This document shows, one piece after another, positions 18,606 to 58,835 of a stretch of DNA of 64,000 nt. The first letter of the stretch is position 1. Every line of letters begins with the position of its first letter. This DNA is from Neorhizobium tomejilense. Its GTDB lineage: Bacteria; Pseudomonadota; Alphaproteobacteria; Rhizobiales; Rhizobiaceae. The notes beneath the pieces are model-generated. The model was not told the DNA's origin and searched no databases. It worked only from the letters and a program-made list of their open reading frames with translations. Location: contig PVBG01000003.1 in the NCBI GenBank assembly GCA_002968845.1, positions 372,001-436,000 on the forward strand. The letters run 5' to 3'. Both the position numbers and the translations under genes were made by a program.

Positions 18606-18620
18606 GAACAGAAGAAGAAC
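18606..18620. promoter_or_regulatory. LexA box upstream of imuA
   Basis: GAAC-AGAAGAA-GAAC is an exact GAAC-N7-GAAC site, the reverse complement of the alphaproteobacterial LexA consensus GTTC-N7-GTTC. It lies 61 bp before the imuA ATG. imuA-imuB-dnaE2 cassettes are known LexA targets in this class, so SOS control is expected. Confidence 0.85.
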
Positions 18621-20872: not shown

Positions 20873-23800
20873 AATACGCCGAACTCCAGGTCACGACGCA
20901 TTTCAGCTTTCTCCGCGGGGCTAGTTCCGCCGACGAACTCTTCGCTACTGCGGCTGCAATGGGCATCGACGCGCTTGGTGTCGTGGACCGCAATAGCCTT
21001 GCTGGCATAGTCCGGTCTTGGGAGGCGGCGAAGGCGACGGGCGTTCGCTTGGTTGTCGCCTGCCGTCTCGATCTCGCCGACGGCATGTCGCTCCTTGTCT
21101 ACCCGACCGACCGTCCTGCCTACTCCAGGCTCACCCGCCTGCTGTCGTTGGGGAAGAGCAGGGGCGGCAAGGGAAAGTGCATCCTTAACCTCAACGACGT
21201 GGAAGCCTACAGCGACGGCCTGATCGCGGTCCTGATCCCCGACGAAGCCGACGATGTCTATGCGGGACAGCTCCGCAAGGTCTCTGCCATCTTTGGTGAC
21301 CGCGCCTATGTCAGCCTATGCCTTCGCCGTCGTCCGAACGACAGGCTGCGCCTGCACAACCTGTCGAACATGGCGTTTCGCCACAAGGTCAAAACGGTCG
21401 TCACTAACGACGTGCTGTTCCATGATCCCTCTCGCCGCCAGCTCCAGGATATCGTGACCTGCATCCGCAGCCGCACCACGATCGACAGCGTGGGCTTCGA
21501 CAGGGAAAGGCATGCCGACAGGTTTCTGAAGGCTCCCGAGGAGATGCATCGTCTGTTTTCCGAGTACCCGGAGGCGCTTGCCCGCACCCGCGAGATCGTT
21601 GATCGCTGCAAGTTCGACCTATCTGAACTCCAGTACCAGTATCCGGAGGAGGCGCTAGTTCCCGGTCTCGATGCCCAGCAGTCGCTGACGAAGTTCGCCT
21701 GGGAAGGTGCAGCAGAGCGTTATCCCGAAGGCATCCCGGAGAAAGTTCGCAAGGCGATCCTTCATGAACTCGATCTCATCAGGAAGATGTCGTATGCGCC
21801 CTACTTTTTGACGGTGTACTCGATCGTTCGCTTCGCCCGCTCGAAGGACATCCTCTGCCAGGGACGCGGGTCCGCCGCCAATTCGGCGGTCTGCTACTGT
21901 CTTGGGATCACCAGCATCAATCCCGAGACATCCGACCTGTTGTTCGAGCGCTTCGTGTCGATGGAGCGCAACGAGCCGCCGGATATCGACGTCGATTTCG
22001 AGCACTCCCGCCGCGAGGAGGTCATCCAGTGGATTTACGAGACCTACGGGCGTTCGCGCTCGGCTCTCTGCTCGACCGTCACCCGCTATCGGGCAAAGGG
22101 CGCGCTGCGCGATGTCGGGAAAGCGCTCGGGCTCCCTGAGGACCTGATAACGCAATTGTCGTCCGGGGTCTGGGGCTGGTCGGAAGGCGTCGGGGAGAAG
22201 CAGCTCAAAGAGAACAACATGAACACGGCGGATTACCGCCTGAAGCTGGCGCTGGACCTCGCATCCCAGCTGATGGGCGCGCCGCGGCATCTTGGCCAGC
22301 ATCCGGGTGGGTTTGTCCTGACACAGGACAGGCTGGACGACCTCGTGCCGATCGAGCCGGCCAGCATGAAGGACCGCCAGGTCGTCGAGTGGGACAAGGA
22401 CGACATCGAAGCCCTGAAATTCATGAAGGTCGACGTTCTGGCCCTGGGAATGCTGTCGTGCATGGCTCGCTCGTTCGAACTCCTGGCTGAACACAAGAAC
22501 GAGCCGATGAGCCTTGCCGACGTCCCGCAGGAGGATTCGAAGACCTACGCCATGATCCGTAAGGCCGATACACTCGGGACATTCCAGATCGAGAGCCGTG
22601 CCCAGATGGCAATGCTGCCTCGCCTGAAGCCAAGGACGTTCTACGACCTGGTCGTCCAGGTGGCGATCGTGCGGCCCGGACCGATCCAGGGTGACATGGT
22701 TCATCCGTATCTTCGCCGCCGGGAAGGCAAGGAAAAGGTCGAATACCCGACGCCGGATCTCGAGGCCGTCCTTGGCAAAACCCTCGGCGTTCCGCTGTTC
22801 CAGGAGAGCGCCATGAAGGTCGCGATGGTATGCGCGGGCTTTTCGGCGGGAGAGGCCGACCAGCTGAGACGGGCCATGGCCACGTTCAAGTTCACGGGCG
22901 GGGTCAGCAAGTTCAAGGACAAGCTCGTCGATGGCATGGTGAAGAACGGTTACACCCGCGAGTTCGCCGAGAAGACATTCACGCAGCTGGAAGGCTTCGG
23001 AAGCTACGGCTTCCCGGAGAGCCATGCCGCTTCCTTCGCCCTCATCGCCTATGCGAGCTCGTGGGTAAAGTGCCATCACCCTGACGTTTTCTGCGCCGCC
23101 CTGATCAACAGCCAGCCGATGGGTTTCTATAGCGTCGCGCAGATCGTCACCGACGCCCGTCAGCATGGCGTCGAAGTCAGGCCCATCTGCGTGAACGCAT
23201 CACGCTGGGACTGCACCATGGAACGGATCGGCAATTCTGATCGGTTCGCCGTCCGGTTGGGAATGCGGGTTGTCAAAGGGCTTTCCGAGATTGACGCGGC
23301 GCGCATCATCTTGGCCCGCGCCGACCAGCCGTTCGAAAGCGCCGACGACATGTGGCGGCGGTCGGGGATTCCGACGGCGTCCCTGGTTAAGCTCGCCCAC
23401 GCGGATGCCTTCCTTCCGTCTCTAGGTCTCGAACGCCGTCAGGCACTGTGGGACATCAAGGCGATGCGCGACGAGCCGCTGGAGTTATGGGCAGCCGCGG
23501 CCGAGCGCGAGGCCGCGACCGTCGCCGAGATGCAGGAGCCCGAAGTCGTCCTGAGATCGATGACCGAAGGCAGGGAGGTCGTCGAGGACTATACGAATAC
23601 CGGACTGACCCTGCGCGCCCACCCGATGTCGTTCCTTCGCAAGGACCTCGAGGGGAAAAAGATCGTCACCTGCGCCGAGGCGATGGGAGAGCGCGACGGA
23701 AGGTGGCTCTGGACGGCGGGGCTGGTTCTCGTGAGGCAGCGGCCCGGATCGGCCAAGGGCGTGATGTTCCTAACGCTGGAAGACGAGACCGGGATTGTCA

Positions 23801-24126
23801 ACGCCGTCGTGTGGCCGAGCCTCTTCGAACGCCAGCGGCGGGTACTTATGACGGCGTCCATGATGGGTATCCATGGCCGTATCCAGCGTGAAGGCGAGGT
23901 GGTTCATCTGGTCGCCCAAAAACTTTTCGATTTTTCGGCCGACCTGTCGAGCCTGAGTGAGCGCGACGGGGACTTCCCGCTACCACATGGCCGCGGAGAT
24001 CAGGTCAAGCATGGCGGCGGTCCCGATCCACGGGACCACCCGAAGCCCGCAGTGCAGGCGAGGGACATCTATATCCAGGACCTCCACATCGATACGCTGA
24101 AGGTGAAGAGCCGGAACTTTCACTAG
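20869..24126 (+). CDS. dnaE2: DnaE2, error-prone DNA polymerase III alpha subunit
   Basis: At 1085 residues it is a C-family polymerase of the DnaE2 (ImuC) branch. The N-terminal PHP domain begins [18 protein letters not shown] and lacks several of the metal-binding histidines of replicative DnaE. The polymerase core contains [16 protein letters not shown] and the catalytic [16 protein letters not shown] helix-hairpin-helix region and an OB-fold follow ([18 protein letters not shown]). It extends past damaged bases during SOS mutagenesis. The ATG at 20869, overlapping the imuB stop by four bases, is preferred over 20845. The C-terminal end (KSRNFH) is typical of the subfamily. Confidence 0.95.
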
Positions 24127-24658
24127 TAGGACGGGCGTTTCCAGCGAACTCGTTTCGGTATCGGCGCTGAGATGGCGTGAAGGCTTTCAGCTTAGCTTGA
24201 AAGCTGTTGTTTCGGCCCCGAAGCGACGAATCTTGCGACAGGAGTGCGCCTTCATCTAGGTCATTCGGATAGTCTTAACCTTCAACCGAAAGCAGACCTC
24301 CGCACCGTCGAGTTGGACAGCACCTAAGAACTACTTTTACGCTATAGCCCACTAAGGCATTTCCGTTATGAACCGCAGGTGTCTGCACTCCTGAGGGGTC
24401 AATCAGGAGCTGACCGCCTCACTTGTCTCTCTCTTTGAGCGAATCGCCGTTCGGTGCATAGCGATAGGCGGTAGCGAATATTTCTTGAACCGTCGTGCAG
24501 GCAGTCGCGAATCCCCTGTGTCCGAGTTTTGTGGGGCTAGCTGTGTTGCTCAGGCGTCTGAACGCCGCCCCCTGTGTTAGGGTCACAATGATAAAAACGA
24601 TCACCTTTTAGTGGTGCTCTCGGTCTGTTATGCAGAGTGTAATTTCGGGGGGTAGCAT
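24127..24658. other. Intergenic stretch between dnaE2 and the Septu-like operon
   Basis: About 530 bp without a convincing gene. It holds the weak terminator at 24183-24204 and a second 7-bp inverted repeat (CTCCTGA at 24388-24394, TCAGGAG at 24403-24409). No reverse transcriptase gene or retron-type structured RNA could be recognised upstream of the ATPase gene. Confidence 0.4.
24183..24204 (+). terminator. Possible terminator of imuA-imuB-dnaE2
   Basis: GCTTTCA and TGAAAGC form a 7-bp stem around an 8-base loop 56 bp after the dnaE2 stop, followed by TGTTGTTT. The T-run is poor, so this is a weak call. Confidence 0.4.
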
Positions 24659-26188
24659 ATGATTTTCAACGTGATTTCAAGAGCTCAGGCAATTCCGCAA
24701 AAAGGATTGAACGAGGCTTACCTTCGCATCGACCACTGGAACGATTTCAGCTTCGTAACGATGTTCGAAGTTGTCTTATTCGATGAAAACGGAACTAAGC
24801 ATCAGCTCGGCAATGTTAAAATTGGTTTTGTTGAGCAAACGAAGCAAACGGCCACCCATTCGGTGTTGAGTTCCACCTTCGAGGAATTGGATGAAAAGTT
24901 CTTCTCACTCGGGGATGACGTTGCCTATTACAAGATAATAGCTGAGCAACTCACGGAAACATGCAGAACATCGTATCTAAAAGCGCTGCGAGATGTCGCT
25001 TATGCAGAGGTCGCCCTGGAGAGGGCAACCGGCCAAGAGGTTTTCAGGGTTTCGCTGCTTCGGTCCGTGAGCATGACGGCGGTGACCGGACAATATAGGC
25101 GGATTCTCGATGGCGGTGCGGAATTAACCGACTTCAACTTTGGTTACGAGCGCCCGAAAGACGAGAGGTACGCCGGCATCGACTTGGAGTTCAAGGTAAC
25201 CGCCAGTTCCAAGCCCAACACCAATGTTCACGCGATCATTGGGCGAAACGGTGTAGGGAAGACAACGCTTCTGAACGACATGATCGATGCGATCATGGAA
25301 CGCCCTGACAGGAAGGGCGGCTTCTACCTTCGAGACCTGTTTGGCACGATAGCCACCCCGGACAGATATTTCGCGGGACTGGTATCTGTCTCCTTCAGTG
25401 CATTCGATCCGTTTGACCCACCGCAGGAACAGGCGGATCCCGAACTTGGAACGCGCTATTCATATATCGGGCTCAAGCAAGAGGGCCAAAGTTCAGGTCA
25501 GCTCAAGACACTCGCCATGCTTCGAGATGAGTGCGTTGCCAGCATCGGCGAATGTTTTGCTGACCGAAACAAACGAGCTCGTTGGATAAGGGCTCTTTCA
25601 ACGCTCGAGTCCGACGAAAACTTCAAGCGGATGGATCTCAAGACGCTAGCCATAAATGACGACTGGGGACAGGCTGCGAAGTCGTGGGTTGCCCGCATGA
25701 GTGCCGGGCATGCGGTTGTGCTTCTGACTATTTCAAAGTTGGTCGCCCGTGTCGAAGAAAAGACGGTGGTTTTGCTCGATGAGCCTGAAACCCATCTTCA
25801 TCCGCCGTTGCTTTCGGCATTCACGCGAACATTGAGTCAACTGCTCCAAGACAGAAATGGGCTTGCAATTGTCGCTACCCATTCCCCAGTGGTCCTGCAG
25901 GAAGTTCCCAAGTCGTGCGTCTGGGTGATTAGCCGCGCCGGTCTCGCGCTCAAACGAGCACGTCCGCGCATTGAAACCTTCGGCGAGAACGTAGGCGTCC
26001 TTACACGAGAGGTATTCGGTCTCGAGGTATCGAAGTCGGGCTTTCATTCTCTACTCGCTAAAGACGTCGAGACCGGCAAAAGCTATGAGGAAATCGTCCT
26101 CGAGTACGATGGTCAACTGGGTCTGGAGGCAAGGGGCATTCTTCGTGCGCTGGTAGCCGAACCCCAGGCCGGAGTGCAATCCGAATGA
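24659..26188 (+). CDS. Septu-like AAA/ABC-type ATPase (PtuA-like) with N-terminal extension
   Basis: This 509-residue ATPase has a Walker A (GRNGVGKT, 195-202), a signature-like segment (MSAGH, 347-351), a Walker B (VLLDEPETHLHP, 371-382) and the switch ATHSP (406-410). This is the AAA15/OLD type found in PtuA of Septu and related defence proteins. The Toprim domain of OLD nucleases is absent. About 180 residues before the ATPase core form a separate region (YLRIDHWNDFSFVTMFEV, LGNVKIGF, FFSLGDDVAYY) that the simplest PtuA form lacks. The stop overlaps the start of the HNH gene (ATGA), so the pair is co-translated. Pairing with an HNH nuclease is what points to Septu-like phage defence; activity is inferred. 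Codon use is less GC-biased than in the neighbours, as in transferred genes. Confidence 0.8.
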   Translation: MIFNVISRAQAIPQKGLNEAYLRIDHWNDFSFVTMFEVVLFDENGTKHQLGNVKIGFVEQTKQTATHSVLSSTFEELDEKFFSLGDDVAYYKIIAEQLTETCRTSYLKALRDVAYAEVALERATGQEVFRVSLLRSVSMTAVTGQYRRILDGGAELTDFNFGYERPKDERYAGIDLEFKVTASSKPNTNVHAIIGRNGVGKTTLLNDMIDAIMERPDRKGGFYLRDLFGTIATPDRYFAGLVSVSFSAFDPFDPPQEQADPELGTRYSYIGLKQEGQSSGQLKTLAMLRDECVASIGECFADRNKRARWIRALSTLESDENFKRMDLKTLAINDDWGQAAKSWVARMSAGHAVVLLTISKLVARVEEKTVVLLDEPETHLHPPLLSAFTRTLSQLLQDRNGLAIVATHSPVVLQEVPKSCVWVISRAGLALKRARPRIETFGENVGVLTREVFGLEVSKSGFHSLLAKDVETGKSYEEIVLEYDGQLGLEARGILRALVAEPQAGVQSE

Positions 26189-27078
26189 GGCCGCTGAACC
26201 GTCCTGAGTACAATCCGCTCGATGTATTTTTTCAATGCGTCGCCGAAATAGGTGAAGCCGATCGCCAAAAGCCTTTCTTCGAGAATCAAGAACACATATC
26301 TCAATCGGTCGTCGATTTCGAAGCGGCCACTGCGACGAGGAGCTGGCATGCCCTGCCACGTGTCGGGCGAGGGCACCCCGAGGTGGTGATAAGGGGCACA
26401 TTGACCAAGGGCGACCTGGTATCCCTTTATGGAGATTGCCTCGTGGGCGGTGCCGAAGCGAGGGAGTTGTACGACGCGCTGCTCGTATCCTCGGACGAGA
26501 AATGTCCCTTCTGCGGCGGGATCGGTCAGGTCCACACGTTGGACCATTACCTCCCGAAATCCAATTTTCCGATCTACTCGGTGCTGCCGGACAACCTTGT
26601 TCCGTGCTGCCGCGATTGCAATACAGGTAAGATGAGCTCGTTCGCTACGCAGCAGAGCGAGCAGACCCTTCATCCTTATCTGGACGAAACCAAGTTTTTT
26701 ACGGAGCGATGGGTTCACGCCAGGGTCTGCCAGACAACGCCGATCTCGATCGAGTATTTTTGTTCACCGCCGGAGGAATGGCCGGAGATCGACAAGCTTC
26801 GAGCAAAGAGCCACTTCGATCAATACAACCTGGCACGCCGGTATAAAATCCAAGCGGGGGCAGAACTGGCACGCGTAATCCATTCGAGAATGAAGAGCCT
26901 TCGGGTTTTAAGTCCGGCACAATTCGCCGAGCATCTCGGTGACCATGCCGATGACAGCGGCTATGACCTCAATGGGTGGACCAGGACGATGTACTGGGCG
27001 CTTCGACGAAGCCTTTGGTTTTGTGGTGCCGACTTCAATGAGCCGCCGGGACAGGCTCAGGCCGAAGCCGTCGCGTAG
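26185..27078 (+). CDS. HNH endonuclease (PtuB-like), partner of the ATPase
   Basis: The 297-residue protein carries an HNH nuclease core at about 107-149: CPFC (107-110), LDHYLPKS (119-126, with the catalytic His121), an asparagine in LPDNLVP, then CCRDCNTGK with the second zinc cysteine pair. The flanks are about 100 residues before and 150 after, longer than in the shortest PtuB proteins. It starts inside the ATPase stop codon, so both products are made together. In Septu the ATPase controls a nuclease that cuts nucleic acids upon infection; that mechanism is known for other members and inferred here. Confidence 0.8.
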   Translation: MRPLNRPEYNPLDVFFQCVAEIGEADRQKPFFENQEHISQSVVDFEAATATRSWHALPRVGRGHPEVVIRGTLTKGDLVSLYGDCLVGGAEARELYDALLVSSDEKCPFCGGIGQVHTLDHYLPKSNFPIYSVLPDNLVPCCRDCNTGKMSSFATQQSEQTLHPYLDETKFFTERWVHARVCQTTPISIEYFCSPPEEWPEIDKLRAKSHFDQYNLARRYKIQAGAELARVIHSRMKSLRVLSPAQFAEHLGDHADDSGYDLNGWTRTMYWALRRSLWFCGADFNEPPGQAQAEAVA

Positions 27079-28023
27079 CGTCAGCTATCGTTACGTGCGC
27101 CAGACTTGCGAGTGCAGTCCAGCAACTCGCGGAGTGGACTTTTCCCCTGAAATCAACAGTCGCGTGAGAATCTTGGATGCCTTGATTTATCTCGGCGATC
27201 AGGGAAGCTGGCGCTGGAACGAACAGAAACCTTCAGAAGGATTATGGTTAACTCGGAGAAGGCAAGGTTCGTTGTAACGATGATCGAGGTGCGCTCGTAG
27301 AGCCTGCTGATCAGATGGAACAGGAGCTGACGCCAGCTTGGGCAAAATGGCAAATGGCCGAGTTCGGCAAGGATGATGAAGTCGAGACGGTTGAGATCGT
27401 GTAAACCGGCCGTCTGAATTCCGAGGAACTCCCGCCAGTTTGAGCCGACAGCGGTCGTCGGCACCACGGTGGTATGGCCGCTGTCGTCTATTACGCTCCA
27501 GAAGCGGTCAGACTGCTGTCGGCCCTTCAAACCGGACATCGGGCGAAGTTTTTACGCTTTGGGTTTACTTCCAACATCAGGGCCACCCACGAACTCGCCG
27601 TCAACGCGGCGGTACATGAGCTTCGCCCAGGTTTGGTGACAGCCTTAGTGTCGTCTGGAAGAAGAAGTATGACTCAGGTGGGTTACCGATGTCGTTCGGC
27701 GTCGTCCTGGCCAACGTTACGGTCGAGAACCAGTCCTGCGGCCACGTGATAGGGGAAGTGCCACCGAAACGTCCCACGCCTCGGCGATGGGGTCCGATCG
27801 ACGCAGGGCGAAGGGGAGAGAATGCCAAGTCCCAGGAGAGCCTGGTCTGGCTGCCGGCGTTGAGGTGAGGGAGGCCCAAAAGCCAAGATTCACGACGGCT
27901 TCGGACAGGTCAAAGAAGCCGGACCCTATCAACGATCCTGAAGAAAAGCGCGTTCGAGACCTCGCCAAATCCGACACCATTCTCATGATCCGGAACATTC
28001 GACCATCCGGTGCATTAGCATCC
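27079..28023. other. Stretch between the Septu-like operon and the response regulator
   Basis: About 945 bp that hold the IstB remnant at 27252-27398 and otherwise no recognisable gene. Open frames exist, but their translations look like shadows. The response-regulator frame stays open upstream to 27787 without a good start. The decayed insertion sequence suggests that the defence genes arrived next to transposon DNA. Confidence 0.4.
27252..27398 (-). pseudogene. IS21-family IstB transposition helper, internal fragment
   Basis: About 49 codons read HDLNRLDFIILAELGHLPF and continue LLFHLISRLYERTSIIVTT up to NLAFSEL. This is the Walker B and sensor region of IstB, the AAA+ helper of IS21 elements (normally RLDLLILDELGYLPF). 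Two substitutions (Ala for Asp, His for Tyr) lie in the ATP-site motif. Both flanks lose the resemblance, and no istA or element end was seen, so only a scar remains. Confidence 0.75.
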
Positions 28024-28419
28024 ATGGATGAAGCTGAATTTGCCAGGCTGAACGAGCCTATCGCTCTCGTCGTTGATGACGAACCCCTGATCCTCATGGA
28101 TACTGCGGATATGATCGCTGACGAGGGCTACGCCATCGTCGAAGCGAGGACCGCTGACGAGGCTTTCGAGTTCCTTACCCGATACTCCTCCCTCCAGTTG
28201 CTGTTCACCGACGTTCAGACCCCCGGACATCTTGACGGCTTCGATCTAGCTCGCAAGGTGGCCGACCGTTGGCCACATATCTGCGTCATAGTCGCGTCAG
28301 GTGCGGCCAAGCCGAAGCCTGGGGACATCCCTGAGAACGCCACATTCATCTCAAAGCCCTTCAGCGCCCGGCTCGTACACGACGTGCTGAGAGAACGATG
28401 CGTCTCGACAACGCCGTAG
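28024..28419 (+). CDS. Single-domain response regulator
   Basis: The 131-residue protein is a receiver domain: the acidic pair VVDDEPL near residue 20, the phosphate-accepting Asp in LLFTDVQTPG, and the conserved Lys in FISKPFS. There is no output domain, so it probably passes phosphate or acts by binding a partner. The order receiver, RsbQ-like hydrolase, PAS histidine kinase within 2.5 kb suggests that it is a target of the kinase at 29304. The start is uncertain: ATGs at 27985 and 28024 are both possible and neither has a strong ribosome binding site. Confidence 0.78.
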   Translation: MDEAEFARLNEPIALVVDDEPLILMDTADMIADEGYAIVEARTADEAFEFLTRYSSLQLLFTDVQTPGHLDGFDLARKVADRWPHICVIVASGAAKPKPGDIPENATFISKPFSARLVHDVLRERCVSTTP

Positions 28420-28507
28420 CGGCAGACAGCTTATGCCTGCGATGCCTCACATCTCAGGTGCATTTTCGCGCGGACCTGTTACGTTGCCGCGACGCTCAGG
28501 GGGTGGA

Positions 28508-29296
28508 ATGTCGGTCATTCGGCGTAACAACGTTGTGGTCTCCGGACATGGAGAAAAGGCAATCGTCTTTTCACACGGTTTCGGGTGCGACCAGAATATG
28601 TGGCGGTTCGTTGCTCCAGAATTCGAAACCCGTTTCCAGACCGTACTGTTTGACCACGTCGGTGCGGGCAAATCAGATCTCGGCGCATATGATCCTGAAA
28701 AATACGGCGACCTTCACGGCTATGCCGAGGACCTCGTGGAAATCGGCGAGGCGCTTGGCCTGAAACAGGCTGTATTCGTGGGCCACTCGGTGAGCGCAAT
28801 GATCGGCGCTCTGGCATCCCTCAAAGCTCCTGACATGTTCGAGGCGCTTGTGATGGTCGGCCCGTCGCCCCGCTATATCGACGACATTGGCTATAAAGGA
28901 GGCTTCAGCCCGGCAGATATTGAGGAATTGCTCGCTTCGCTCGCGGACAATCACATGGGTTGGTCGATAGCGATGGCTCCAGCGATCATGGGAAACTCGG
29001 ACCGCCCCGAACTCGGGCAGGAGCTTGCCGACAGCTTCTGCAGGACCGATCCCGCGATCGCGAAGGCATTCGCACGGGTGACCTTCACTTCCGACAATCG
29101 CGCCGACCTGCCGCGGGTGACGGCGAGAACGCTCATACTCCAGTGCAAGGATGACATCATCGCATCAGAAGCAATCGGCGAGTATGTACGCGACCATATC
29201 CCGGGAAGCAGGCTGGTCGTCCTTGACGCGACTGGTCACTGCCCAAATCTCTCGGCTCCTCGCGAGGTCGTCGCCGCCATCCAGGATTTCGTCTAG
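28508..29296 (+). CDS. RsbQ-like alpha/beta hydrolase
   Basis: The 262-residue protein is close to RsbQ/KAI2-type hydrolases: oxyanion region SHGFGCDQNMW, nucleophile elbow GHSVSAMIG (the Ser), an Asp in LILQCKDDIIA, and a His in DATGHCPNLSAP. RsbQ makes or processes a small hydrophobic signal for the PAS-domain phosphatase RsbP in Bacillus. Here the next gene, 7 bp downstream, encodes a PAS-domain histidine kinase, which would be the equivalent partner. The start at 28508 (MSVIRRNNV) follows AGGGGGTGG. Confidence 0.85.
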   Translation: MSVIRRNNVVVSGHGEKAIVFSHGFGCDQNMWRFVAPEFETRFQTVLFDHVGAGKSDLGAYDPEKYGDLHGYAEDLVEIGEALGLKQAVFVGHSVSAMIGALASLKAPDMFEALVMVGPSPRYIDDIGYKGGFSPADIEELLASLADNHMGWSIAMAPAIMGNSDRPELGQELADSFCRTDPAIAKAFARVTFTSDNRADLPRVTARTLILQCKDDIIASEAIGEYVRDHIPGSRLVVLDATGHCPNLSAPREVVAAIQDFV

Positions 29297-29303
29297 GCAG
29301 CCG

Positions 29304-30434
29304 ATGGACCACGATACCGATTTCCGCGATCTGTTCGACAACGCACCGTGTGGATACCTTGTTCTGAACGACAAGGGCCGCATCGTGCTCGTAAACGAGA
29401 CGCTCCGAATATGGCTCGATCTGGTGGACGACGAGCTTCTAGGCAAACGCCTGCTCGATCTCCTGCCCGTGGCGGGCCGTGTTTTCTACGAAACTCATTT
29501 CGCACCCCTCTTGCGCATGCAGGGTTTTTTCCATGAGGTCGCGCTAGATGTGGTCCGGAGAGACGGTACGAGGCTGCCTGTCCTTGCCAATGCCACTCAG
29601 CGCGTCGATGCAGATGGCGAAGTCAAGGAAACCAGGATCGCTCTCTTCCAGGCGACGAGCCGACGCAAATATGAGCGGGAACTATTCGAAGCAAACGAGG
29701 CCGGTGACCAGGCACGGAAGGAAATCGAGACCCTCAATAAGGCCCTGACCGAAACAGGCCGCCTGCGCGACGAATTCATCGCCATCCTCGGGCACGATCT
29801 CCGGAACCCAGTCGCTGCTATCGGAGGCGGCATGCGCATTCTGTCAAAAGAGGACCTCAGTTCAAGAGGTCAGCAGGTCGTCCGACTGATCGATGGCAGC
29901 GTTGCCCGCATGGGCAGACTGATCGATGACGTACTTGACCTGACCCGTGGTCGAATGGGTGGCGGCCTTACGATCTCCCGTAAGGTCGAAGAGGACCTTT
30001 CCCTCCACCTCAAGCAAGTCGTGGCGGAGCTTTCTACTGGGAGCGGCAGACGCATCGACGTCGAGATTGACCTGCCTGAACCAGTGCTCGTGGATGCCGG
30101 ACGCATTGACCAACTGGTCTCGAACCTTCTCGGGAACGCACTATCTCATGGAGCGGAAGACAAACCCGTCGGGCTGTCGGCACGAGTGGCTGGACATGAC
30201 CTGGTCATTTCTGTCTCCAACGGCGGCGACCCAATCCCGCCCGAGACGATTGGCCGCCTGTTTCAACCTTTTTTTCGAGGAGGTGACGCTGCGGGACGTC
30301 ACGAGCAAGGCCTCGGGCTCGGTCTTCATATCGCCTCCGAGATCGCAAAGGCACATGGCGGAACGCTCTCGGTGTCGTCCTCCGCCGAGAAAACAACATT
30401 TGAGTTTCGCATGCCGATCGGTGCGGAAAACTGA
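29304..30434 (+). CDS. PAS-domain sensor histidine kinase
   Basis: The 376-residue cytoplasmic kinase has an N-terminal PAS domain (about 5-115; LFDNAPCGYLVLNDKG, VNETLRIWLDL), a short coiled coil (ELFEANEAGDQARKEIETLN), a dimerisation/phosphoacceptor helix (AILGHDLRNPVAAI with the His) and an ATPase domain with N box (LLGNALSHG) and G box (GLGLGLHIASEI). The MDHDTDFRDLF start at 29304 comes 7 bp after the hydrolase stop. PAS probably binds the product of the RsbQ-like hydrolase, and the receiver protein at 28024 is the likely phosphate acceptor. Both are inferred from gene order. Confidence 0.88.
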   Translation: MDHDTDFRDLFDNAPCGYLVLNDKGRIVLVNETLRIWLDLVDDELLGKRLLDLLPVAGRVFYETHFAPLLRMQGFFHEVALDVVRRDGTRLPVLANATQRVDADGEVKETRIALFQATSRRKYERELFEANEAGDQARKEIETLNKALTETGRLRDEFIAILGHDLRNPVAAIGGGMRILSKEDLSSRGQQVVRLIDGSVARMGRLIDDVLDLTRGRMGGGLTISRKVEEDLSLHLKQVVAELSTGSGRRIDVEIDLPEPVLVDAGRIDQLVSNLLGNALSHGAEDKPVGLSARVAGHDLVISVSNGGDPIPPETIGRLFQPFFRGGDAAGRHEQGLGLGLHIASEIAKAHGGTLSVSSSAEKTTFEFRMPIGAEN

Positions 30435-30443
30435 AGGTGCGCG

Positions 30444-30749
30444 GTGACGAGGGTAACCGACTTCATTTCCGAGCTCGTCCAAGCCGCTAACACCCTCCCT
30501 TCGTTGGCTCCATCCGAGCGTCGGCGGCTGATCGAACGGGGCATCTCGACCGTGCAGGCCCAGAGAGAGCTACTGCACGTCAATGGAAACATGGTCGTAA
30601 TCCAGCCCGGGTTCATGTCGGACATGCCAACGCTTGCCGAGATGGCGGGGGACAACGAGGTCGTAGATGTCCTCGTGAGCGCCGGGATGCTGATGCTCGC
30701 CGGGGAGATCAGGCGTCTGCGCATCCTCTGTAACGTGGACGGAGACTAG
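30444..30749 (+). CDS. Hypothetical protein downstream of the PAS kinase, 101 aa
   Basis: Not recognised. It starts with GTG at 30444, nine bases after the kinase stop, so it is in the same operon. The product is soluble and helical: a first helix pair (FISELVQAANTLPSL, SERRRLIERGISTVQAQREL), a short hairpin (NMVVIQPGF) and a last helix (VVDVLVSAGMLMLAGEIRRLRIL). It could be an accessory regulator of the kinase. No family is identified. Confidence 0.55.
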   Translation: MTRVTDFISELVQAANTLPSLAPSERRRLIERGISTVQAQRELLHVNGNMVVIQPGFMSDMPTLAEMAGDNEVVDVLVSAGMLMLAGEIRRLRILCNVDGD

Positions 30750-30757
30750 TTCCCGTT

Positions 30758-30772
30758 GTTCTCATTCCGTTC
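30758..30772. promoter_or_regulatory. LexA box upstream of the SRAP pair
   Basis: GTTC-TCATTCC-GTTC is an exact match to the alphaproteobacterial LexA consensus GTTC-N7-GTTC. It lies 38 bp before the ATG of the first SRAP gene, a usual operator position. It supports SOS induction of both SRAP genes. Confidence 0.8.
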
Positions 30773-30810
30773 CTGTGTTATCCCGTTGCGCGTTTCTGTG
30801 GGACCAGTCG

Positions 30811-31479
30811 ATGTCACGCCTGTACGCGATAACTCGAACCATGGACGAGATCGTCGCGCATTTCGGCGTGGACGTTGCGAGTCCGGTTGACCTCCCGTGC
30901 GAGACGATCGAGGGCACACACGGACTGATCGTGCTCGAGAAGGACGGTCTCCGTCTGCTCAAGTCGATCCCGTGGGGCTTCCCGAGGCAGACACGCGAGA
31001 TGCGGACAGGCGGGGAGCCGCCAGGTCGCATCGGTCTCGTAGCTGACCTTACCAATCCGCGGTGGGATCGCATTGTCGTTGATCCGCGCTATCGATGCCT
31101 GATACCGCTCACTCACTTCGCAAATCCCGACGGCCCCAAGGGCGAGAAGACGAGGACATGGTTCTCGAAGAACCGCCAGCCGTTGATGGCTTGGGCCGGG
31201 TTCTGCAAGAACACGGCTGACTTCGGACCCGTGTTTGCCGGAATGACGATGACGGCGAACGAGAAGATCAAGCCGTTCAACGACCGCATGCCGGTCCTTC
31301 TGAAACCAGACGAATACGACCGCTGGCTTCACGGTTCGATCCAGGACGTCATCGCGATCCAGTTTCGCGATCCCCCGCCTTCGGAAGACTTCGAGATCCT
31401 TCACACTCGAGACCGCTGGCAAAGCGGGACGCCGCCAGGGAAAGCCTTGTCGCGCCGGGCCAACGACGCCATGTTCTAG
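30811..31479 (+). CDS. SRAP-family protein lacking all catalytic residues
   Basis: The 222-residue protein is clearly an SRAP (SOS response-associated peptidase, YedK/HMCES) fold: IPWGFPR, YRCLIPLTHFA, TRTWFS, WAGF and DRMPVLL are in family order. Yet the four residues that make the enzyme work are changed. The N-terminal Cys2 that bonds to abasic sites is Ser2; the Asn before ADLT is Gly/Leu (75-76); the Glu of HFAE is Asn105; the His of VHxRMP is Asn157. Its tandem neighbour keeps all four. It may be a DNA-binding pseudo-enzyme, a partner subunit, or a decaying duplicate. The LexA box lies directly upstream. The ATG at 30811 was chosen because family homology starts there. Confidence 0.85.
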   Translation: MSRLYAITRTMDEIVAHFGVDVASPVDLPCETIEGTHGLIVLEKDGLRLLKSIPWGFPRQTREMRTGGEPPGRIGLVADLTNPRWDRIVVDPRYRCLIPLTHFANPDGPKGEKTRTWFSKNRQPLMAWAGFCKNTADFGPVFAGMTMTANEKIKPFNDRMPVLLKPDEYDRWLHGSIQDVIAIQFRDPPPSEDFEILHTRDRWQSGTPPGKALSRRANDAMF

Positions 31480-31507
31480 CAACCCGCGACCTATCGGGAG
31501 ACAACGC

Positions 31508-32152
31508 ATGTGCAACTTGTATACCGTCCGCAAGTCCGCCGCCGAGGTAGCCGCACACTTCCGGGTGGCGAACCTGATGGCATCCAACGCTCCTGAGGAG
31601 GTCTACCCTGGGACCCCTGGCATGGTCGTTACGGAAAACGAAGGCGTGCGGGAGCTGCGGTCGATGACTTGGGGGTTTCCGATGCGGTTCGCGACTATGA
31701 AGCCGGACGCGAAGCCCAAGCCCGTCAACAACATCGCGGACCTGACCAAGGGTACTTGGGTCGGTCTGGCCCGCAAGCCGCAATGGCGCTGCTTGATCCC
31801 CCTTACGCATTTCGCTGAACCCGAGGGGCAGAAGGGTGCGATGACCAGAACGTGGTTTTCGTTGCCGGACGAGCCCGTTTTCGCGTGGGCCGGACTCTGG
31901 CGCGTCAGCGACGAGTGGGGTCCGGTATACTCAGGCGCAATGACCGACGCCAACGCGTTCGTGGCTCCCGTCCATAACCGGATGCCAGTGATACTCCACC
32001 GCGATGATTACGATCGATGGCTACACGGAAGCTTCGAGGACGTGCTGGCCTTCCAAAGGCGGTCCTTCCCGCCAGAGCTGATGTCGATGGAGAGGACGTC
32101 CGAACTCTGGGTCAAGAAAAGGACGGCGACGGAAAGTCCGCTACTCCTGTGA
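31508..32152 (+). CDS. SRAP family (YedK/HMCES-like) abasic-site shield protein
   Basis: The 214-residue protein begins MCNLYTV, giving the catalytic Cys2 once Met1 is removed. The other active-site positions are present: Asn74/Asn75 (PVNNIADL), Glu104 (THFAEPEG) and His156 (VHNRMP). The family forms a thiazolidine DNA-protein crosslink with abasic sites in single-stranded DNA and so protects them; that chemistry is known for YedK and HMCES and expected here. It lies 28 bp behind a catalytically dead paralog, with GGGAGACAACGC before the ATG, so both should be expressed from the LexA-controlled promoter. Confidence 0.9.
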   Translation: MCNLYTVRKSAAEVAAHFRVANLMASNAPEEVYPGTPGMVVTENEGVRELRSMTWGFPMRFATMKPDAKPKPVNNIADLTKGTWVGLARKPQWRCLIPLTHFAEPEGQKGAMTRTWFSLPDEPVFAWAGLWRVSDEWGPVYSGAMTDANAFVAPVHNRMPVILHRDDYDRWLHGSFEDVLAFQRRSFPPELMSMERTSELWVKKRTATESPLLL

Positions 32153-32269
32153 CATGACCATTGAACTCGCCCTCAAGCTTGCCCGTTGGCTAGGCGTCAG
32201 CTGGCCTGGACCTCAGGAACGACTTCGCGAGGCACGGGTTATATTCAGTCAGCCGTGGAGGAGCGCGAG

Positions 32270-32512
32270 ATGGTAGACAAGGAACAGCAGCAGCGTGAGC
32301 GGGCTTACAAGATCTGGGAAGACGAAGGTCGCCCGGAAGGTTCACACGACGAACATTGGCGGCGTGCCGAAGAACAGCATGAGCTGGCCGAGCAAGAATC
32401 CGAGGATGTGACGAAGGTCAATCAGCAGGCCGACGACAGGTTCGCGAGGGACGACACCGAAAGCACGTCGGTAGCAGACATAAAGCCGCCATCAGCGGTG
32501 AGCCCCGATTGA
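32270..32512 (+). CDS. DUF2934 family protein, 80 aa
   Basis: The start MVDKEQQQRERAYKIWEDEG at 32270, preceded by GGAGGAGCGCGAG, opens a DUF2934 unit: RERAYKIWEDEGRPEG, then DEHWRRAEEQ. The C-terminal half is acidic and disordered. Such short proteins are frequent in rhizobial stress clusters and have no known biochemical role. The last 21 bp overlap the convergent gene at 32492. Confidence 0.82.
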   Translation: MVDKEQQQRERAYKIWEDEGRPEGSHDEHWRRAEEQHELAEQESEDVTKVNQQADDRFARDDTESTSVADIKPPSAVSPD

Positions 32513-32836
32513 TAGAGACGACAACTTTCTGCGGCCATTGAAATCCCGAGGCCTTTGCTTCGCTCGGAGTGCAAGGACGTCCTTTTCGAATATCCAAACC
32601 TTGCCGTCGTCGCCATCTCCCCGCGCCAACATCACTTCGGCCATGTCACGGTAGACATCTGCATAGCGTGCCAGGCGCTTTAGCGACGCCTGTGGAGGAT
32701 CGGCGGTGGCGATCATCGCCTCGCGGGTTACGACGACGATCCAGACCGACGTGCCATCAGTCACTCCGAGATGGCCGTTCTCTCCGAAGAGAAAAGGGGA
32801 AGGTTCGCACAGTTCCATTTCGACGACATTGTCCAT
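32492..32836 (-). CDS. Unknown protein co-transcribed with two Ku genes, 114 aa
   Basis: Not recognised. The ATG lies one base after the stop of the second Ku gene, and its ribosome binding site (AAGGCGGGATAGG) lies inside that gene, so expression is coupled. The protein has an N-terminal strand pair (LGVTDGTSVWIVVVTREAM), a helical middle (ASLKRLARYADVYRDMAEVML) and a basic C-terminus. It has the size and pattern of small modulators of the DUF1488 type, but the match is too weak to call. Its fixed link to Ku makes a role in end joining conceivable. Confidence 0.6.
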   Translation of the reverse strand: MDNVVEMELCEPSPFLFGENGHLGVTDGTSVWIVVVTREAMIATADPPQASLKRLARYADVYRDMAEVMLARGDGDDGKVWIFEKDVLALRAKQRPRDFNGRRKLSSLSIGAHR

Positions 32837-32837
32837 C

Positions 32838-33650
32838 CTATCCCGCCTTCTTGCTTTTGAGTTCGTCGGCCAATGACTTTTTCAATGCGTCCATGATGTT
32901 GATGACGTTGGAGGCCGGAGCGGCCGTCTCTTTGCCTTTAGTTGACTTCTTGACAGGCTTGAGGGCTTTCTTCTTTTCAGCGATGAGCTTGAGGAGGCTC
33001 TCCTGGATCGGGTCGCTGACCATGTCCGGCGACCATCGCGCAGTCTTCTGCTTGATCAGCTTTTGGGCCAGCGGCAACAGATCTGGATCGGCTTCGTCCT
33101 CGATGTCCTCGAAGTAGTTCTCCTCGGGTCTGACCTCGTCTCCGAAACGAAGCGACCAGAGTACGATGCCCTCACCGCGAGGCTCGAGGACGACAGCGCG
33201 CTCGCGGCGGCCGATGACGAGCTTCGACACACCGACAACCTTGTCAGCTTTCATCGCATCACGGATGACAGCGAATGCCTCGTTTCCGACGGCGTCGTCG
33301 GGCATCAGATAGTGCGGTTTCTCCAGATAGACCCACTCGATGCTGTCGGCGGGCACGAACTTCTCGATGTCGATCGTCTTCACGGTATCGAGGGCCACGG
33401 CATCGAGGTCGTCTTCAGTCAGGATGACATAGTCGTTTTCGCCGCGGGCGTACCCTTTCGCCTCGTTCTTGTCGCGCACCGGTTTTCCCGTCACCGAGTC
33501 GAGGTACTGGGAGACGACGCGGTTGCCGGTCGCCTTGTTCAGGGTATGGAAGCGCACCTTCTCGGATTCGGATGTCGCCGGGGTCATCGCTACCGGACAG
33601 GTGACGAGGGAGAGTTTCAGATAGCCTTTCCAGTAGGGACGCAATGCCAT
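32838..33650 (-). CDS. ku: Ku protein, non-homologous end joining, second copy
   Basis: The 270-residue protein has the bacterial Ku core (about 1-230): PYWKGYLKLSLVTCPV at the N-terminus, NRVVSQYLDSVTG, YVILTEDDLDAV, and the bridge segment IEKFVPADSIEWVYLEKPHYLMPD. A Lys-rich C-terminal tail follows (from about 225), the part that recruits ligase and binds DNA in bacterial Ku. It forms a ring that slides on broken DNA ends. It lies 11 bp below the first Ku gene in the same operon. Multiple Ku paralogs are usual in rhizobia and can pair. No ligD is seen in the window. Confidence 0.93.
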   Translation of the reverse strand: MALRPYWKGYLKLSLVTCPVAMTPATSESEKVRFHTLNKATGNRVVSQYLDSVTGKPVRDKNEAKGYARGENDYVILTEDDLDAVALDTVKTIDIEKFVPADSIEWVYLEKPHYLMPDDAVGNEAFAVIRDAMKADKVVGVSKLVIGRRERAVVLEPRGEGIVLWSLRFGDEVRPEENYFEDIEDEADPDLLPLAQKLIKQKTARWSPDMVSDPIQESLLKLIAEKKKALKPVKKSTKGKETAAPASNVINIMDALKKSLADELKSKKAG

Positions 33651-33661
33651 GATCAGTCTCC

Positions 33662-34567
33662 TCAGCCTGCTTTGCGCTGTGGGGCTGTCTTCACCGCGGA
33701 GGACTTCGCGGCCGTCCCGCGCGCGGCGCGTTGCCGTCCGGTGCCAGCGTTGGCATTGGCGGCAGTGCGTTTCGGTTTGTCCGCTGCGGCCTTCATCATT
33801 CCGGCGCTTTCACGCAACGCGGCCAGCAGGTCGTTTGGCTTCGAGACTTCGACCTTCTTCTTTTTCGGGAGTGCCTTGCCTTCGATCTTTGCCTTGACCA
33901 GTTCGGCCAGCGCCGCTTCATAGCGGTCATCGAAGGTCGCAGGATCGAACTCGCCCTTCTTGGTGCCGATGATGTGCTTGGCGAGATCGAGCATCTCACC
34001 CTCGATCTTGATCTTCGGCAGTTCTTCGAATGCCTTTTTCGACGAGCGTACCTCGTAGTCGTAGTTCAGCGTCGTGGCTATGAGGCCCTTGCCATGGGGC
34101 CGGATCAAGACGGTGCGCATCCTGCGGAACAGGACCGTGCGAGCGATCGCGGCGACATTCGATTTCCGCATGCCATCGCGCAGGGCCGCGTAGGCGTCGG
34201 AACCCATCCTGTCTGGCGTCAGGTAGTACGGCTTATCGAAGAATACGTCGTCTACATCGGAGCAGGGGATGAACGCCTCGATCTCGAGCGTCTTGTTGCT
34301 CTCGGGGATCGTTGCCGCCACCTCTTCGGGGTCGATGATGATGTATTGCCCGTTTTCGATCTCGAAGCCCTTGGTCTGGGCTTCTTTCGGTACAGGCTCC
34401 TCGGTCTCGCTGTCGATAAACACGCGGTTGACGCGGTTTCCGGTGGCGGTGTTGATCGTGTTGAAGGTGATGCGATCCGATGTAGACGCAGCGGTGTAGA
34501 GCGCCACCCCGCACGACACCTCGCCAAATTTCACGAAGCCTTTCCACTGTGCCCGCTGGCCTGCCAT
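33662..34567 (-). CDS. ku: Ku protein, non-homologous end joining, first copy
   Basis: The 301-residue protein carries the Ku core with family markers AGQRAQWKGFVKFGEVSC, NRVNRVFIDSETEEPV, YIIIDPEEVAATIPES and EAFIPCSDVDDVFFDKPYYLTPD. A long basic tail rich in Lys, Arg and Ala follows (from about 230), longer than that of its neighbour. The two proteins are clearly paralogs and may form a heterodimer. The start MAGQRAQWKG at 34567 is used because homology begins there. A perfect 10-bp inverted repeat starts 48 bp upstream and is a likely operator. Confidence 0.93.
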   Translation of the reverse strand: MAGQRAQWKGFVKFGEVSCGVALYTAASTSDRITFNTINTATGNRVNRVFIDSETEEPVPKEAQTKGFEIENGQYIIIDPEEVAATIPESNKTLEIEAFIPCSDVDDVFFDKPYYLTPDRMGSDAYAALRDGMRKSNVAAIARTVLFRRMRTVLIRPHGKGLIATTLNYDYEVRSSKKAFEELPKIKIEGEMLDLAKHIIGTKKGEFDPATFDDRYEAALAELVKAKIEGKALPKKKKVEVSKPNDLLAALRESAGMMKAAADKPKRTAANANAGTGRQRAARGTAAKSSAVKTAPQRKAG

Positions 34568-58621: not shown

Positions 58622-58835
58622 CCGTCCCTCGCTGACTGCCGGTCACTCGCCGGCATGCCGAGGTAATTTCCGGCAAAGCTCTTGCTTTTGCGGCAAATCG
58701 AATGTATGGCCAGCCACATTCCACACGTAAGGCATGGGATTGTCCGGGAGAAATCCGGACCGTTCCGCCCGGTGGCATTCTCGAAGAGGGTGCTGTTCGC
58801 CTTGCGGAGGTTCAACCGGAAAAGGATAACAAGGC

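Follow-up and report, generated by a model that had tools for sequence, protein, structure and literature searches.

An operon in a 64,000-nucleotide stretch of Neorhizobium tomejilense contig PVBG01000003.1 (the window) probably encodes a mobile, reverse transcriptase (RT)-independent, Septu-like antiviral system that belongs, like the Ea59-Ea31 pair of phage lambda, to the PADLOC class PDC-M01. The defensive role is deduced from full-length PADLOC matches, the homology to lambda, the HNH partner, the predicted folds, the patchy spread of the family and the location of the genes in an insertion. The operon consists of an ATPase gene and an HNH nuclease gene on the same strand, which share four bases as had been read from the letters in the original prediction; the coordinates of all features are given in Table 1.

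Table 1. Features of the operon and its surroundings (window positions).
Feature	Position	Strand	Details	Basis
Insertion carrying the operon	24127..30455	.	Edge 30455 from L097, 30811 from other loci	blastn of L095-L101
ABC-type ATPase, PDC-M01A / lambda Ea59 homologue	24659..26188	+	509 aa	PADLOC and lambda Ea59 matches
N-terminal domain of ATPase	24659..25123	+	Residues 1-155; strands, then helices	AlphaFold2
Walker A GRNGVGKT	25241..25264	+	Residues 195-202; G195, N197, G200, K201	Invariant in 52 rows
ABC signature-like MSAGH	25697..25711	+	Residues 347-351; S348, G350	Invariant in 52 rows
Walker B VVLLDEPE	25766..25789	+	Residues 370-377; D374, E375, P376, E377	Invariant in 52 rows
Switch histidine H408 in ATHSP	25880..25882	+	T407, H408, S409	Invariant in 52 rows
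ATGA overlap of ATPase and HNH genes	26185..26188	+	4 bases	Sequence
HNH nuclease, PDC-M01B / lambda Ea31 homologue	26185..27078	+	297 aa	PtuB-like fold end to end
HNH core	26503..26631	+	Residues 107-149; two CxxC pairs and D120-H121...N137	Invariant residues, 52 rows
IstB (IS21) fragment beside operon, ORF	27156..27539	-	Residues 44-99	Pfam IstB_IS21, E 1.3e-10

A profile search against defence-system models, which had been suggested as a check, assigned both proteins to PDC-M01 over their full length. The ATPase matches PDC-M01A with E 8.5e-207 (residues 1-503 of 509, profile positions 1-506 of 510), and the nuclease matches PDC-M01B with E 9.5e-102 (residues 1-281 of 297, profile positions 1-282 of 285). 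The ATPase profile yielded 79 loci, one of them a genome contig and 78 from a viral collection (drawn from the best 80 of 137 matching stretches), a sample that favours phage contexts; the profile scan of genome contigs gave four loci, of which L010-L012, matching along just 48-95 query residues, were dropped. An HNH-type ORF of 275-333 amino acids, recognised by motif and not by profile, adjoins the ATPase in 74 of the 79 loci, its start lying anywhere from 50 bases ahead of the ATPase end to 12 bases behind it; the remaining five loci stop at or inside the ATPase. By the same motif, an HNH partner was found beside all six other same-family ATPase genes, and an HNH-like ORF in five of five further same-phylum loci. 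Homologues that regularly occur without the HNH gene, named beforehand as an observation that would speak against the proposed Septu subtype, were thus not seen, and the ATPase and HNH genes evidently form one conserved unit. In gene order, in size and in the small overlap or gap between its genes, the window operon agrees with the other members. Judged by these comparisons, the operon is an intact-looking member of a listed PADLOC candidate class, and nothing sets the window copy apart. The long ATPase N-terminus and the enlarged nuclease, initially regarded as unusual, are normal for PDC-M01, and the idea of a distinct Septu subtype first found here was rejected because the class is already in PADLOC. 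PDC-M01 is termed an unpublished candidate in the excerpts of PMC11811056; a bench test of phage resistance for any PDC-M01 member was not found in the literature searched, including excerpts of the two papers that name the class.

The first protein is predicted to be a complete ABC-type ATPase, in which a PtuA-like core is preceded by a family-specific N-terminal domain. The Walker A and Walker B motifs were already recognised in the original prediction, and their key residues proved invariant in an alignment of 52 rows (the window and 51 rows chosen at <85% identity from 66 full-length loci), among which the lowest identity to the window ATPase is 19%. A Toprim domain is absent among the 21 Pfam families matching at E up to 1, as had been noted. 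The AlphaFold2 model ends in helices that follow the ABC core. At the other end, residues 1-155 constitute an extra conserved domain that, as far as sequence comparison reaches, has no known match. It includes residues 22-38 (LRIDHWNDFSFVTMFEV) and 81-91 (FFSLGDDVAYY); W27, D29, T34, L77 and S83 are invariant in 26 aligned rows (alignment A6), and the mean pLDDT is at least 90 in every ten-residue block up to residue 160. The PtuA profile does not match this domain, the best hit of a PDB sequence search had an E of 0.018 (SarX), and the 12 Pfam families found were each confined to one of 26 members, with a best E of 0.0011 (WHIM1); neither of these two best hits is credible. That the N-terminal region might be the standard PtuA N-lobe had been named beforehand as an observation against the proposed subtype; the core that follows has the PtuA fold, but residues 1-155 are without a match in the PtuA profile.

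The two CxxC pairs, D120-H121 and N137 of the HNH protein, which had also been picked out from the sequence, are present and conserved in the corresponding 52-row alignment, window included. C107, C110, D120, H121, N137, C142 and C145 represent seven of the eight invariant positions, the eighth being L138, and the lowest identity to the window nuclease is 17%. The Pfam HNH family scores 19.5 bits, just under its cutoff of 21.4.

In pairwise comparison, lambda Ea59 shares 47% identity with the window ATPase over 522 columns (E 1e-168), and lambda Ea31 shares 35% identity with the nuclease over 289 columns (E 8e-56). The genes ea31 (24509-25399) and ea59 (25396-26973) of NC_001416 overlap by four bases (25396-25399), PADLOC labels Ea59 and Ea31 as PDC-M01A and PDC-M01B, and the window ATPase and Ea59 fall into a supported 14-row clade (96/92) of an ATPase tree with 75 rows. 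The two pairs hence resemble each other in gene order, overlap, PADLOC labels, near-full-length identity and tree position; however, lambda ea59-ea31 sits between the tail-fibre genes and attP/int, whereas the window pair is found behind dnaE2, within a chromosomal insertion. Of 50,697 phage records searched, 24 matched, and the best 20 of these are mostly lambda or its relatives. The lambda endonuclease of 1982 is presumably Ea59. In the open-access literature searched, which most subscription journals lie outside, no paper linking lambda ea59-ea31 with Septu was found.

Several database records deserve mention for their own sake. Three plasmid records (NZ_CP104294, NZ_CP068597 and NZ_CP082339) and one phage record (MW057783) of 48.4-48.5 kb, ascribed to Stenotrophomonas, Paenibacillus, Salmonella and a Campylobacter phage, show the same 47.1% match as lambda; they resemble lambda DNA and may stem from a sequencing control. 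A match to lambda ea59-ea31 is found in 91 of 5426 E. coli genomes, in 68 of which at least 80% is matched in one place, and some DE3-type lysogens retain only 870 of the 2465 bases (e.g., NZ_CP081489, 792937-793806). In another E. coli record (L092, NZ_AP026904; 4302-8363), which is named a plasmid but carries chromosome-like genes, the pair follows icd, an integration site of lambdoid elements.

In the window, the operon is preceded by imuA, imuB and dnaE2, with a gap of 532 bases to dnaE2; the name imuA is assumed from position, a Pfam match being absent. Downstream lie the IS21 IstB fragment, a response regulator, an alpha/beta hydrolase, a histidine kinase and two SRAP genes. The IstB fragment corroborates the IS21 scar noted at the outset. 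None of the ten window neighbours scanned matches a phage family. Some part of the region matches in 39 of 40 same-genus genomes (own genome included), and the operon is absent after dnaE2 from all seven same-genus loci compared (L095-L101). In five of them (L096-L100), 14-44 bases separate the end of dnaE2 (window 24094-24126) from sequence that corresponds to position 30456 (L097) or 30812, and for the 1.5 kb compared past dnaE2 in L095 and L101 there is no match to window 22001-34000. Since the compared loci lack the operon and dnaE2 is joined to the SRAP region in five of them, the operon is placed in an insertion of 6.3-6.7 kb. GTTCN7GTTC boxes are located at 18606-18620, 61 bases before the imuA ORF, and at 30758-30772, with 2 bases left to the SRAP ORF at 30775; such boxes are about as numerous as expected by chance (3 found vs. 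2.6 expected), and two promoter-like sites were found where 1.5 were expected. Elsewhere in the window, positions 58722-58831 match the Rfam rpsB sRNA family with 45.3 bits.

Relatives of the operon were detected in seven of 297 same-family genomes at E 1e-10 and in six of 398 same-phylum genomes at E 1e-40, the own genome being included in both counts, as well as in 64 of 72,556 plasmid records at E 1e-20, some of which look like lambda itself. These searches indicate that PDC-M01 is rare and patchy and scattered in the manner of defence genes, with members on phage-like contigs, on plasmids and, here, in a chromosomal insertion. Among the neighbour families of PDC-M01 loci (the 25 commonest of 86 Pfam and the 25 commonest of 157 PADLOC families), Pfam IMS occurs in three of 137 neighbour proteins. 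UmuC-like genes lie near PDC-M01 pairs at L048:1863-3200 and L055:7576-8865, which may be chance; the window pair, too, is near a gene of the UmuC-like family, imuB.

The structural models relate the operon to Septu and to retrons that carry the same effectors. The nuclease model has the PtuB fold (best Foldseek E 4.1e-3), and the part of the ATPase that was compared, residues 145-509, has the PtuA-core fold. The link in sequence appears thin: hhalign of the nuclease against nine PtuB-like proteins gave a probability of 88.6 and E 2.7e-6 over the HNH core, and the alignment of the ATPase profile with PtuA was confined to 152 C-terminal columns (probability 98.9). E. coli Septu likewise pairs the genes for an ABC ATPase core and an HNH fold, and the spacing between histidine and asparagine is 16 in both nucleases (H121-N137 in the window, H75-N91 in EcB88 PtuB); the core, however, starts at residue 1 in E. 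coli PtuA and at residue 158 in the window ATPase model. According to the excerpts of PMC13096335, H75 and N91 of EcB88 PtuB and the Walker motifs of PtuA are required for immunity. PtuAB of retron I-A (Ec78/Eco7, Ec83/Eco4) has the same two folds as the window pair, but retron I-A possesses an RT and msDNA, whereas the window operon is without an RT, and the common core begins at chain residue 44-62 in retron PtuA compared to 145-157 in the window model. A profile of the RTs from three retron I-A loci found only those three among 4172 ORFs from the loci compared and the window (E up to 0.1), and the 532-base gap folds like its shuffles (z 0.02) and has no Rfam match at gathering scores; the lack of an upstream RT and of a structured RNA, both noticed early on, thus extends to the homologues for the RT and is upheld for the RNA as far as Rfam families go. 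As candidates, a retron was rejected for want of an RT and an msr-msd-like RNA upstream, an OLD nuclease for want of a C-terminal Toprim, and PARIS (AriA-AriB) because the partner is an HNH protein and not the AriB Toprim nuclease. In a viral structure library, the best 50 matches comprise distant ABC-type and other P-loop proteins, with no full-length relative among them.

The operon could be a canonical Septu type I system that merely has longer proteins. The PADLOC PtuA1 model PDLC00282 fits the ATPase at full length (E 3.9e-193, profile positions 1-518 of 520) just as PDC-M01A does, so that the PADLOC library overlaps here; in addition, both folds match, and the excerpts of the Bacillus survey PMC11811056 describe loci called both Septu and PDC-M01. 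This explanation is nevertheless unlikely, because the NCBIfam PtuA model NF041760, named for retron Ec78 PtuA, scores the ATPase at 42.9 bits against a cutoff of 500, residues 1-155 are foreign to the PtuA profile, and the distance from the Walker A lysine to the Walker B aspartate is 173 residues in the window ATPase versus 273 in PtuA of EcB88 (K43, D316, as far as the excerpted source goes). Moreover, the best 25 of 53 PADLOC matches of the nuclease are all PDC-M01B, with no PtuB among them, and the tree splits the 63-row PDC-M01 set from 12 PtuA rows at 100/100. These PtuA rows are NF041760 hits only (12 of 15 loci), with PADLOC's other PtuA1 branches left out; L114, L119 and L120 were left out as cut or unrecognised, L126, whose ATPase was missed by motif, is absent as well, and the tree program cautions that the PDC-M01 and PtuA groups are joined by long branches. 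Of the Septu-like pairing proposed in the original prediction, the PtuA-core and PtuB folds stand, while the low NF041760 score, the extra domain and the split in the tree speak against full identity with Septu.

The surroundings suggest two further explanations. As the operon has dnaE2 upstream and two SRAP genes downstream, and some relatives are near the umuC-like genes of L048 and L055 (IMS in 3/137 neighbour proteins), it might assist the imuA-imuB-dnaE2 mutasome just upstream as an accessory in DNA repair or the SOS response. This is very improbable: the operon follows dnaE2 in none of the seven same-genus loci, in five of which the SRAP region follows dnaE2 directly, the 532-base gap parts it from dnaE2, and no GTTCN7GTTC box precedes it. 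There is a somewhat greater, though still small, chance that the pair serves lambda-like phages themselves, in host DNA turnover, recombination or competition within the infected cell, and was taken up by a bacterial island. Among named homologues, the nearest is a lambda gene pair, an early gene set read from pL, which could hence serve the lytic cycle rather than the lysogen; relatives occur on phage-like contigs, and a weapon against rival phages is hard to tell apart from the defence of a lysogen. On the other hand, the family is scattered like defence genes, the scanned window neighbours are free of phage families, and two plasmid records have no annotated phage gene within about 6 kb, in gene tables that are incomplete. 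Furthermore, ea31, ea47 and ea59 are scored as non-essential in lambda in a table of PMC10695390, a source available in part.

If the operon is an antiviral system, as we consider probable, the ATPase and the HNH protein would assemble into a complex, with ATP-bound dimers of the ATPase holding or licensing the nuclease. The N-terminal domain may sense a phage-made cue or dock the nuclease, thereby replacing the control by RT and msDNA that operates in retron-Septu. Upon infection, the HNH protein would be released or turned on and would cut nucleic acid, possibly single-stranded or damaged DNA, or tRNA; the cutting would halt the growth of the phage and probably sacrifice the cell (abortive infection). 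In the parts of the literature available, PtuAB effectors are described to cut tRNA-Tyr or DNA (PMC11555353, PMC12887533); for retron-Septu, degradation of single-stranded DNA or tRNA by the effectors is reported to follow the dissociation of the complex (PMC12887533).

A bolder reading, which we put forward tentatively and with rather less confidence than the antiviral role, is that Ea59-Ea31/PDC-M01 forms a self-contained further branch of Septu-like systems, in which the N-terminal domain of the ATPase occupies the sensing and holding role of RT and msDNA and whose founding member would be the lambda endonuclease of 1982. If this is true, lambda has carried an unrecognised Septu-like defence system throughout. 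The bridge matters as it ties the PDC-M01 candidate to lambda ea59-ea31. The excerpts of PMC7580223 describe a deletion phage, a lambda in which ea31 and ea59 are replaced, and the role of the lambda b-region genes becomes a plating experiment. A positive outcome would add to Septu-like immunity a branch that is free of RT and has a conserved N-terminal domain of its own; it would also account for the copies dispersed over phage-like contigs, plasmids and islands.
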